NCBI GenBank assembly: GCA_018058095.1
Contig: JAGPCO010000060.1
Coordinates: forward strand, 1 to 43,587
Direction of reading: 5' to 3'
DNA: 43,587 bases
DNA from: Kofleriaceae bacterium
GTDB lineage: Bacteria; Myxococcota_A; Polyangia; Haliangiales; Haliangiaceae
In this document: in pieces, positions 1-4,469 of the stretch
Layout of the letters: every line of letters begins with the position of its first letter
Numbering within the stretch: the stretch's first letter is position 1
Notes under the pieces: generated by a model
The model's input: the letters and a program-made list of their open reading frames with translations, nothing else
Database searches by the model: none
Told to the model about the DNA's origin: nothing
Translations under genes and position numbers: made by a program

Positions 1-310
1 CCGCCACCGCCGTCACCCCCACCCGCGTCGTAGCCACCACCACCACCACCGGAGTCGTAGCCACCACCACCACCACCACCGCCGTCACCACCGCCGTCAC
101 CACCACCACCGGCGTCGTAGCCGCCGTCACCACCACCGCCGTCACCACCACCAGCGGTGTCGTCGCCACCGCCGTCACCACCACCACCGGCGTCGTAACC
201 ACCGCCGTCACCACCACCACCCGCGTCGTAGCCGCCGCCGTCACCGCCACCACCGGCGTCGTAGCCGCCGCCGTCGCCACCACCACCCGCCGCCTCGTAC
301 CCGCCGTCGG
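1..310 (-). repeat. 33-bp coding tandem repeat (Gly/Tyr/Asp)
   Basis: On the minus strand this region encodes about four near-exact 11-residue units (GYDAGGGGDGG), followed by shorter and longer variants containing GDDTA, YDS and extra GGD steps. The units differ mainly at synonymous Gly positions, which suggests in-frame slippage or unequal crossover within a translated gene. Confidence 0.8.
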
Positions 311-1178
311 GAGCAGCACTCGCGCCGTCCGCGGAGGGCTGCGCCGCTGCATCACCACCATCGATGCCATCGAGATCCGTCGTCGGTGGTGCCGGGTCGT
401 AACCAGGGTCGTCGACCGCCGGGTCCGCGCTCTGCGGCGTCGGGTCCGGCGGAAGCGACTCGGCCGCGCCGCCATCACCTGGCGAGGCGTCGCTCGGACC
501 GGCCTCGACCGGGTTGCCTGGGGCGACGTCGGCATCGACCGGGTTGCCCGGGGCGACGTCGGCGTTGACCGGGCTGCCCTCACCAGGCGCGGCCTCGACC
601 GGCGCCGTCGCCGCCGCGTCCGGCGGCAGGAAGCCGTCCATCGTGCTGCCCGGCACCGGCTGCCCACCGGTGAGGGCGTCGGCCACCGTGGTCTGCACGG
701 TGTTGATGCCCTGCTGGATCGTGTCGCGGATCTCCGGGCCGAACACGCTGCCGAGCGCGCCGGCCAGGCCGGTCTCCTGGTTCCAGTAGCCGTACTCGGT
801 CTGCGCCCAGTCGGCGCTGGTCTCGGGCGTCACCGTCTGGCCGAGCTTCTCGGCCACCTCGGGTTGCTGCAGGAACTGGCCGAAGTTGCCCTCGCCGATC
901 GGCCCGGCCACCGTGTACAGCGCGGCCGCGACCGTGTTGACCACGGAGCCGACGGTGCCAGTCTCGTACCCGGCGGTCTGCGCCACCACGCCGAGGCGCG
1001 AGTTCGGATCCGGCGTCGACCAGCCGGCGTAGGTCGAGACCAGGTTGGCCACGTTGTTGCCGACCCACAACGCGGCGGCGCCGGCGGCCAGCAGCGGCAC
1101 CAGCCCGCCGCTGGCGTCCTCCAGCTCGGAGGCGTCGAGGACGATGAGCTCGGTCGGCGCCGGGCGAGTGCTGCTCAT
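1..1178 (-). CDS. Gly-rich repeat protein with double-glycine-type leader (3' end outside window)
   Basis: The reading frame is open from an ATG at 1178 to the left edge (at least 392 codons, no stop). The N-terminus carries LDASELEDASGG at residues 14-25. It fits the double-glycine leader consensus used by peptidase-containing ABC exporters: Leu at -12, Glu at -8, Leu at -7, small residue at -4, Gly-Gly at -2/-1. A hydrophobic Leu/Ala stretch follows (about 26-38), then a soluble region to about 180. Next come Pro/Ala/Asp-rich sequence with near-identical APGNPV units, and from about residue 290 an 11-residue repeat of type GYDAGGGGDGG that degenerates toward the window edge. The leader suggests processing and export; the Gly/Asp repeat may be a flexible or Ca-binding tail. 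The function is unknown. No exporter gene is visible nearby. Confidence 0.8.
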   Translation of the reverse strand, partial: MSSTRPAPTELIVLDASELEDASGGLVPLLAAGAAALWVGNNVANLVSTYAGWSTPDPNSRLGVVAQTAGYETGTVGSVVNTVAAALYTVAGPIGEGNFGQFLQQPEVAEKLGQTVTPETSADWAQTEYGYWNQETGLAGALGSVFGPEIRDTIQQGINTVQTTVADALTGGQPVPGSTMDGFLPPDAAATAPVEAAPGEGSPVNADVAPGNPVDADVAPGNPVEAGPSDASPGDGGAAESLPPDPTPQSADPAVDDPGYDPAPPTTDLDGIDGGDAAAQPSADGASAAPDGGYEAAGGGGDGGGYDAGGGGDGGGYDAGGGGDGGGYDAGGGGDGGGDDTAGGGDGGGGDGGYDAGGGGDGGGDGGGGGGGGYDSGGGGGGYDAGGGDGGG

Positions 1179-1942: not shown

Positions 1943-2638
1943 TCAGGTCGGCGGCGTGCACAGGCCGTGGGCGTCGGTCGCGATCCGCGGAGTACACACC
2001 GCCCCCCCGGTGCACCGGTTGTCGCTGCCGTCGACGCGGCAGATCGCCTGGCACGTCCCGGTGGTGGGCTGGCAGCCCAGGCCAGCGAGACAGGCGTCGG
2101 CCATGAAGCAGACCGAGCCGATGTCGCCCGTGCCAGGCACCGAGCAACCTGGGCTCTCGATCCAGCCTGCCGGCGAGCGATAGGGAACGATACAGGCCTG
2201 ACCGGCAAGGCAGACGGGCGCAAGCGGGTCACACGGGGCCGTGCACAGCGCCGGCGCACCGTTCGGGCACCAGCCACCGTCGACACACTGGTACTCGGGC
2301 ATGCCGCACGAGCGCCGACAGATGCCGTCCACGCACCCGAGCGTCGGTAGGCACGAGTCGGGCTCACCGAGCGGGGCGGTGCAGGCCTCGCCTGGACCGT
2401 CGGTGCCGGGAATGGAGGTGCAGCCGAGGCTCCAGCCAGGTTGGAAGTACGCGCACCGCTCGCCAGCATTGCAGTGACGCTGCGGCGCCGCACCGCAGCT
2501 GCTCGAGACCGCGCCGTCGACGGCAGGCGCGCTGTCGAGCGGCCTTCGGCCGTCGGGCGCTGTGGGAGCGTTCCCACACCCGGCCGCGACCAATACAACG
2601 GCCACCGGTCGTCGCCAGCGGAAAAACCTACTGCGCAT
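1943..2638 (-). CDS. Cys-rich lipoprotein
   Basis: A 231-aa protein with an Arg-rich n-region, a hydrophobic core and lipobox VAAGC (Cys21), so it is a predicted lipoprotein with Gly at +2. The mature part has more than 20 cysteines in spaced modules (CxxxxxC, GxxC patterns) resembling the Dickkopf/EGF-like Cys-rich lipoproteins common in myxobacteria. This implies an extensively disulfide-bonded extracytoplasmic protein. It is the last gene of a three-gene operon: its start overlaps the end of the protease gene by 11 bp. No enzymatic motif is visible and its function is unknown. It may be an accessory or binding partner of the upstream metalloprotease. Confidence 0.82.
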   Translation of the reverse strand: MRSRFFRWRRPVAVVLVAAGCGNAPTAPDGRRPLDSAPAVDGAVSSSCGAAPQRHCNAGERCAYFQPGWSLGCTSIPGTDGPGEACTAPLGEPDSCLPTLGCVDGICRRSCGMPEYQCVDGGWCPNGAPALCTAPCDPLAPVCLAGQACIVPYRSPAGWIESPGCSVPGTGDIGSVCFMADACLAGLGCQPTTGTCQAICRVDGSDNRCTGGAVCTPRIATDAHGLCTPPT

Positions 2639-4469
2639 ATTCCACCGCCACGATGATCACCCGCTGGCTGTATCCGTTGTCGTTGCCCAGCACGGGAGGT
2701 GAGATTGTTGTCGGTGAGGTGTGCACGGTGTTCGCTCCGGACCACGCGGTGTCCGTCAGCGCGCGCGAGTAGCTCCGGATCACCTTGGAACCGGGCTTGA
2801 GGTACGCGAGGACGAAGCGAGCGTTGGCGCTCTGGTACGAAATCTGCGGGCTCGCCACCTGCGCGAGGTCCCCGCCGTTGGTCCACTGCGCGGTCTGGGT
2901 CCACCCACCGCTCGTGTTGATCTCCCCGCGGAGGGTCATCAGGTTGCTTGCCTCACTGTAGGTCCGGAACACCATGAGGCAGCCGTTCGACTGACCTGTG
3001 CAGGCGACGGTGGGCGGTGACCACGACAGGTGCCCGAAGGCGGTGAACGCGTTGCCAGGCTGTGCCGAACCCGCCACTGGGATCGTGAGCAGATTGATGT
3101 AGTAGCTACCGTTGACAAGTGCGACGACGAAGACCTTCCGATACGGGTCGAACGACGCGGCGACTTGATCACCTCGGTTGCGGATGGCCGCCCCGGAGTT
3201 CGGGTTGGTCAGGCAACCTTGCGAGGTCCAGTTTGCGCCGGAAGGCGAGGTCATCCAGCACAACCGCTTCTCGCGGTAGTCGGCCGGAGAGGTTGGGCCG
3301 TGACTACCCATGCCATAGGGGAAGATCGTGTACGGAGGATTAGCCTCCACCTTCGGCGGGTCTTTCTCCAGGTAGAATATCGCAAACTGCTGGTTGACGC
3401 TGTCATAGGCCACCGCCGGAGGTGCGTAGGCGTCGGTTGGCGGAACTACGAAGGCCGTTTCGGTGCCTGTGAACTCCTTGCGCATGCCCTTGAGCATGAG
3501 CCGCCAGTTGTCGACGCCGATCCAGGGCACGATGAGGTCGGGTGCTCCCTTGCTCAGGCTACCGGGCCGGAACGCGATCGCCGAGCCGCTGGGCACGTCG
3601 TTGTCCCCGACGGACCAGGTCGAGCCGTAGCCGCCGGATGAGCCCGACAGCCATGACTTGTAGGCGCCCGTTCGGATCCCGTAGACGGAGTAGACCGCGT
3701 ACGGAATCGTGGGGATGGCGAACAGCGTTTCGCGTTCGTAGCTGGTCCAGTGACGATGGTGGTCTGGCGGCGTGTTTGCCATCACCGGTGCAGTGGTGAC
3801 GTAGGTGCCTCCCTGGCTATGCTCGAGAAGCGCGAGCGGGGTGCCGCCGTAGCTGTCCGTGAACGTGTGGTTCAGCGCAAGCGTGTGGCCGAGTTCGTGC
3901 GTGAAGGCAACGTGAATATCCGCGCCGGGCGTGGCCTGCGCCGGGTCGAATGGCTTGAATGTCCTTGGTCCGCCGTTGGCGCCGTTGATGGACAGGTACG
4001 CGTAGAGTTCGACGTGGCCTCTCGTGATGTGACCGCTCGCGCAGTCATCCACGTGGGTCGCCGAGTAGGCAACCGTGGATGGCGACAGGTTTGCCGACAC
4101 CACGATCGCCTGGTCTAGCGTGAGCTGGGAGGTGGTTCCGGCGTAGTAGAAGCGGACGCTCAGGCCGAGCAGGTCGTTGGTGGTCGCCAGCGCTTGTTCC
4201 AGTTGCACGGCGATCTGAGCCAGCGTCCAGTTGGTGCCGTCCGGTCGCTTGAGCACGGTGAGTCCCGTGTGGAGATAGATCGGGATTGTCCTGTTGGCGG
4301 GCTCCCAGTGCCAGGGCGATGCGCTGGGACAGGTCGAGTTGTAGCGAGACTGGACCCCCGACGCGGTCGGCTTGTGGCCCCAGGCCACCGAGGCGGACGC
4401 GATGAGCCACCCAGCGAGCACCAACGGGACTATCGCCGATGCGAATCCCAGGCGAGCTGCGCGGCTCAT
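2628..4469 (-). CDS. Secreted matrixin/metzincin-like metalloprotease
   Basis: A 613-aa protein with an N-terminal signal peptide (hydrophobic core about 10-29, likely cleaved near AWG31). The zinc site is HELGHTLALNH at 191-201, giving ligands His191, His195 and His201 and catalytic Glu192 in the HExxHxxxxxH spacing of metzincins. The usual Gly of HExxHxxGxxH is Ala here. A Met-turn candidate APVMAN lies near Met230. The roughly 380 residues after the catalytic domain look beta-rich with many W/Y/S residues, possibly a beta-propeller-like or substrate-binding part. The start ATG overlaps the stop of the upstream lipoprotein gene as ATGA, indicating translational coupling. It is probably an extracellular or periplasmic peptidase; the substrate is unknown. 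Confidence 0.83.
   Translation of the reverse strand: MSRAARLGFASAIVPLVLAGWLIASASVAWGHKPTASGVQSRYNSTCPSASPWHWEPANRTIPIYLHTGLTVLKRPDGTNWTLAQIAVQLEQALATTNDLLGLSVRFYYAGTTSQLTLDQAIVVSANLSPSTVAYSATHVDDCASGHITRGHVELYAYLSINGANGGPRTFKPFDPAQATPGADIHVAFTHELGHTLALNHTFTDSYGGTPLALLEHSQGGTYVTTAPVMANTPPDHHRHWTSYERETLFAIPTIPYAVYSVYGIRTGAYKSWLSGSSGGYGSTWSVGDNDVPSGSAIAFRPGSLSKGAPDLIVPWIGVDNWRLMLKGMRKEFTGTETAFVVPPTDAYAPPAVAYDSVNQQFAIFYLEKDPPKVEANPPYTIFPYGMGSHGPTSPADYREKRLCWMTSPSGANWTSQGCLTNPNSGAAIRNRGDQVAASFDPYRKVFVVALVNGSYYINLLTIPVAGSAQPGNAFTAFGHLSWSPPTVACTGQSNGCLMVFRTYSEASNLMTLRGEINTSGGWTQTAQWTNGGDLAQVASPQISYQSANARFVLAYLKPGSKVIRSYSRALTDTAWSGANTVHTSPTTISPPVLGNDNGYSQRVIIVAVEYAQ

Follow-up and report, generated by a model that had tools for sequence, protein, structure and literature searches.

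C39 exporters are regarded as peptide exporters. Type I adhesins of the RTX/LapA kind carry a C-terminal, uncleaved signal and Ca-binding nonapeptides. The double-glycine precursors of cyanobacteria are 28–164 aa long (PMC3140520), and the CvaAB system of Escherichia coli exports a 116-aa cargo poorly (PMC10231218). In Faecalibacterium, MAM, an abundant envelope protein that is not a bacteriocin, has a double-glycine (GG) leader, and an adjacent PCAT is its proposed exporter (PMC12184118). No literature on double-glycine leaders in Myxococcota was found in the limited set searched.

Here, a large protein of a Kofleriaceae bacterium that begins with such a leader and runs into a glycine-rich tail is compared with these systems. 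From its sequence, the reading to which we lean is that of a modular surface or matrix protein, processed by a C39 peptidase and exported by a type I route.

Architecture, leader and paralogs

The window, i.e., the whole stretch of 43,587 nucleotides that was analysed, is the start of contig C30 in a draft genome of 7.57 Mb (97% complete). The open reading frame (ORF; 3..1178, minus strand) starts with an ATG at 1178 and remains open as far as base 3, giving at least 392 aa with the 3′ end missing at the contig end. Its frame is coding and the ORF is real, because GC3 reaches 0.97 over the N-terminal 190 codons. Since the window starts at base 1 of the contig, the true C-terminus lies outside view, and a search of other contigs with the tail returned no candidate for the missing 3′ part. 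The protein has a net charge of −53, lacks both Cys and His, and consists, in order, of a double-glycine leader (residues 1–25), a hydrophobic helix (26–50), an all-helical domain (56–165), a linker (166–290) and a repeat tail (291–392 and beyond). The cargo behind the leader thus amounts to 367 aa inside the window, a lower bound that bears out the large cargo claimed by the first-pass annotation.

The hydrophobic helix (LVPLLAAGAAALWVGNNVANLVSTY; 1029..1103, minus) is supported by an AlphaFold2 (AF2) model, in which it spans residues 2–25, and by alignment with the paralog on contig C134, which has VAPLLFIGGAILSMG at the matching position. The linker (309..683, minus) is acidic and rich in Pro, Ala and Asp, and contains a 10-aa repeat (NADVAPGNPVDADVAPGNPVEA) detected by TRF at 500–579 with a period of 30. 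The tail (3..308, minus) is built of the 11-aa unit GGGGDGGGYDA, and its composition is extreme: the final 100 residues in the window include 65 Gly, 17 Asp and 7 Tyr. TRF placed a 33-bp (11-aa) array at 133–287 with 90% matches, and related arrays across 14–309. The repeat tail described earlier is therefore present; the statement that the protein ends in it does not hold for the window copy, whose tail carries on past the contig end, while in the paralogs the stop codon follows the tail. RTX repeats of the GGxGxDxUx type (PF00353) had no match up to E 10 in the window protein or in the C134, C218 and G006 proteins.

Two neighbouring genes were recorded in the window. An ORF of 613 aa (2628–4469, minus) has a secreted-type N-terminus and a HELGH zinc-protease motif. 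A LOG-family-like gene (~1353–1917, plus) is divergent from the glycine-tailed ORF; a LOG-like gene also lies ~2.5 kb from a helical-domain gene in another genome (locus L063, G171), which is probably a coincidence.

The leader (MSSTRPAPTELIVLDASELEDASGG; 1104..1178, minus) carries the double-glycine consensus at residues 14–25 (LDASELEDASGG), with L at −12, D at −11, E at −8, L at −7, A at −4 and G at −2 and −1. This agrees with a hydrophobic residue at −12, an acidic or polar one at −8, Leu/Met/Ile at −7, an aliphatic one at −4 and Gly-Gly/Ala at −2/−1, so that the consensus reported in the first-pass annotation stands at −12, −8, −7 and the GG pair. C39 cleavage is predicted after Gly25. 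The strict consensus occurred 5 times in 289,788 residues of proteins from the same genome, in a census over 0.90 of the 7.57 Mb, aimed in part at loci of interest, and a lone N-terminal match is for this reason not decisive. When the N-terminus was scanned alone, it matched NCBIfam TIGR03949 (class IIb bacteriocin, lactobin A/cerein 7B) with an E-value of 9e-4 and 19.0 bits, below the curated cut-off of 21.5, and with a cargo of at least 367 aa there is no small peptide product that would place the protein in that family; no match to TIGR03949 arose with the whole window protein. It was the only NCBIfam family matched by the N-termini of the window and C134 proteins (E 0.025 for C134), and the NHLP/Nif11 leader families of NCBIfam gave no match to the window N-terminus. 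In a profile trained solely on leaders adjoining C39 exporters in other genomes, the window leader ranked between 5th and 10th of 281,351 12-mers from its own genome, depending on smoothing, and the leader of the C218 protein ranked 1st.

Other leaders of the same type, which the first-pass annotation had proposed to look for, were found in the same genome on C134 (424 aa) and C218 (429 aa), and a fourth protein of the same build occurs within the genus (G006:C950). Searching one genome with the first 50 residues recovered C134 at E 0.012, with the same spacing followed by PLL..GGA. With the C134 protein as query, C218 (E 1.8e-11) and G006:C950 (E 1.3e-7) were recovered via the middle region, the leader not being used, and both nonetheless have a leader (MSISELDGDALNQVSGG and MNKKSDDRALEVLDLDALDEVSGA, respectively) and a tail. 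All three combine a GG/GA leader with a Gly-Asp-Tyr/Phe C-terminus right before the stop codon, as in C134 (GGGGYDSGSGG..GGDFGGGGGFE), and the cleavage site is GG in all own-genome copies and GA in G006. In a comparison of 35 genomes of the order, their middle repeats (TQTFDDGSTL...) were limited to this genus, the weakest match, in G010, looking unrelated. The window protein is linked to these paralogs by the leader, the following helix and the tail only, and a Gly-rich tail is low-complexity sequence.

These results bear on whether the N-terminus resembles a leader by accident, in a protein that is simply cytoplasmic, or disordered and of low complexity. From the census rate (5/289,788), ~0.4 N-terminal matches would be expected by chance in the 0.9 Mb sampled, and the leader alone is hardly beyond chance. 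The case is raised by C134, by C218 and G006, by TIGR03949 and by the profile rank: the same leader and tail recur in three proteins of this genome and one of a relative, and the rank is high in a profile built from exporter-adjacent leaders of other genomes. Because of the paralogs of the same design, the predicted leader appears well above chance, and an accidental resemblance is very improbable. Other weak look-alikes in relatives were dropped on inspection, being in the wrong frame, internal or without GG, and a leader-like motif on C43 probably lies inside a longer ORF.

C39 exporters in the genome and its relatives

The genome-wide check for a C39 exporter that the first-pass annotation had suggested returned five PF03412 matches, so the refuting condition named there, a genome lacking such an exporter, does not hold. 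Two of them (C27 and C92) keep all of the catalytic Gln, Cys, His and Asp, C152 has a C39 domain without the catalytic Cys, and C43 and C157 encode other C39-like proteins. PF03412 had no match on the contig of the window itself, although whatever follows the gene downstream is cut off by the contig end. The C27 locus has the full type I layout, with a 776-aa PCAT (nearest NCBIfam TIGR03796, under its cut-off), two HlyD-like adaptors and a TolC-like channel. Two acidic GG-leader proteins of 204 and 391 aa adjoin this exporter, and because of these neighbours, large GG-leader proteins next to a C39 exporter can be said to exist in the same genome. The 391-aa protein (L029:11502-12677) contains an Asp run (CDDDDDDDDDDRDEDE), and a 729-aa adaptor of the locus has long Gln runs. 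Elsewhere in the genome, a 76-aa ORF (L194:7126-7356, contig C204) has a Cys-rich C-terminus (..GGAAGAGILSAMGMCSLLCPPQSASCLGCLPSTQTC..) and resembles a ribosomal peptide precursor.

Exporters of the C27 type were present in 23 of the 56 genomes of relatives, many of them flanked by GG peptides whose leaders read I-D-x3-L-x2-V-x-GG, as in the window leader, and the exporter-adjacent cargo in relatives was short (53–97 aa). In G043, a same-strand run consists of a GG peptide, an adaptor, a PCAT, another adaptor and TolC; its first gene (L240:11733-12107) encodes a GG leader and a 97-aa Gly/Tyr-rich cargo (GGYGGMYGGGGYGSYGG...CGCW). This run joins leader, Gly/Tyr-rich cargo and C39 exporter in one cluster, though in a different species. 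Some GG-leader peptides next to the C39 exporters in relatives contain long runs of methionine (L235, L236, L238 and L239; e.g., DQMMQMMMMMMMMGGGGGG) and could be metal-binding or membrane-active.

Alternatively, an ABC transporter that lacks C39 could recognise the leader, whether or not a separate peptidase takes part. The C134 gene lies 231 bp downstream of such a transporter, which is MsbA/type I-like, directly upstream on the same strand, and could be the exporter of the C134 protein; the loss of the catalytic Cys in C152 points the same way. Against this, the GG of the C39 cut site is kept in all own-genome leaders, with GA in G006, and the surroundings of C218 showed no transporter of this kind. 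Export through another transporter is thus quite unlikely, and export of the window protein by C39 cleavage and a type I route appears probable.

The helical domain

The domain at residues 56–165 (PDPNSRLG..GYETGTVG..EYGYW; 684..1013, minus), defined by profile matches and AF2, shares ~30–38% identity with its counterparts, which occur in eight further genomes of the class. Neither this domain nor the paralogs had been noted in the first-pass annotation. Its profile matched 9 of the 289 class genomes, mostly as a single copy each, and 2 of 377 in a draw from the phylum. Among the carriers are lipoproteins, one protein that joins the domain to a pilin-like N-terminus, and proteins of 135 and 193 aa in which it stands alone; two large carriers come from G010, on a contig that may be a binning contaminant. 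AF2 modelled a homolog as all-helical with a pLDDT of 91 and a pTM of 0.84, and the window copy with a pLDDT of 76. No Pfam or NCBIfam family exceeded its cut-off for the domain and no solved relative was found, although PF24655 (DUF7645) matched one member at E 0.006. Fold searches with both models stayed at background (Foldseek E >1; VIA best Z 3.1, 64 residues, rmsd 5.4), by which a new fold is not proven. A scan of viral contigs gave no match, PHROGs and PADLOC yielded none of note, and weak matches to the window domain in G053 and others proved to be ordinary proteins.

A profile built from myxobacterial members only also matches a copy on a Nostoc plasmid (E 1.1e-17), where the domain lies behind an N-terminal stretch of ~64 aa, in place of the barnase-type ribonuclease (PF00545) that Tolypothrix plasmids have there. 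The Nostoc and Tolypothrix genes share an S8 protease-PrcB cassette, and their N-terminal stretches are 67% identical. The gene behind PrcB (L027:7734-8336, Nostoc NZ_CP117772.1; L048:4001-4657, Tolypothrix NZ_CP063792.1) keeps the N-terminal 64 aa and swaps the C-terminal domain, and lysozyme genes occur further along after the cassette.

Since the Nostoc domain occupies the position of the Tolypothrix ribonuclease, the window protein could conceivably be a C39-exported antibacterial effector, with the helical domain as the toxin and the leader and tail as delivery and spacer parts. Such a slot is typical of swappable toxin domains; the sporadic distribution of the domain would agree with this, as would the hydrolase-like stretch that follows one G010 copy. 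Polymorphic toxins have a variable toxin domain at the C-terminus and an immunity gene next to it; the domain sits in the effector slot in Nostoc and is internal in the window protein, where it precedes the linker and tail instead of being C-terminal. Furthermore, no consistent immunity-like neighbour was found in the myxobacterial loci and none clear behind the Nostoc gene, several carriers are lipoproteins or orphans, and the domain is missing from the paralogs that have this leader and tail. An antibacterial effector is accordingly unlikely; given export, a structural or matrix-like role is probable, and a structural or adhesive function fits the composition and the paralogs as read from sequence.

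Proposed route and comparison with known systems

For the preferred surface or matrix protein, the N-terminal 25 residues would bind the C39 domain, and the cut would follow Gly24-Gly25. An ABC channel, a HlyD-like adaptor and a TolC-type channel, for which C27 is the candidate locus, would then move the unfolded remainder outside. There, the hydrophobic helix and the compact helical domain may be displayed as an anchor or functional head, connected through the acidic linker to the Gly/Asp/Tyr tail, which would be long, flexible and anionic. The product would most likely be part of a surface coat or extracellular matrix, within a paralog set of common leader and tail and differing middles. In the best-supported account, a large, mostly disordered cargo is cleaved by C39 and reaches the cell exterior by type I export. 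The anatomy, the paralogs, the intact exporters and the placement of such exporters next to GG-leader proteins are seen directly, whereas we infer the structural role, the cleavage and the pairing of this exporter with the window protein. Caution over cargo size is due mainly to the poor export of a 116-aa cargo by CvaAB; the short exporter-adjacent cargo of relatives also counts against the proposal. More tentatively, a myxobacterial lineage may possibly have turned a C39 bacteriocin exporter into a route for a large, silk-like, Gly/Asp/Tyr-tailed surface or matrix family, of which the window member has an undescribed helical head.

The leader and exporter are of a known kind; the cargo size, the paralog-wide Gly/Asp/Tyr tail and the helical domain were not described in the limited literature searched. 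If the proposal is true, a family of 300–430 residues with one leader type would show that disordered Gly-rich cargo can lift the size limit, would allow large materials to be secreted from Gram-negative cells by way of a cleavable leader, and would identify an unsuspected myxobacterial cell-surface component. The undescribed helical domain is a second, separate target.

Compared with the known systems, the window protein resembles the RTX/LapA-type type I adhesins, which travel by an ABC-HlyD-TolC route, in being large, acidic, repeat-bearing and Gly/Asp-rich; however, their signal is C-terminal and uncleaved, whereas the window protein has an N-terminal leader and no RTX match. MAM shares the idea of a GG leader paired with a PCAT, a likeness by description, and differs in its length of 135 aa, its phylum and its adjacent exporter. 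The class II bacteriocin and microcin V systems are alike in leader consensus, predicted cut site and a C39 exporter layout with adaptor and TolC, but their cargo is a small peptide, whereas that of the window protein comprises at least 367 aa.
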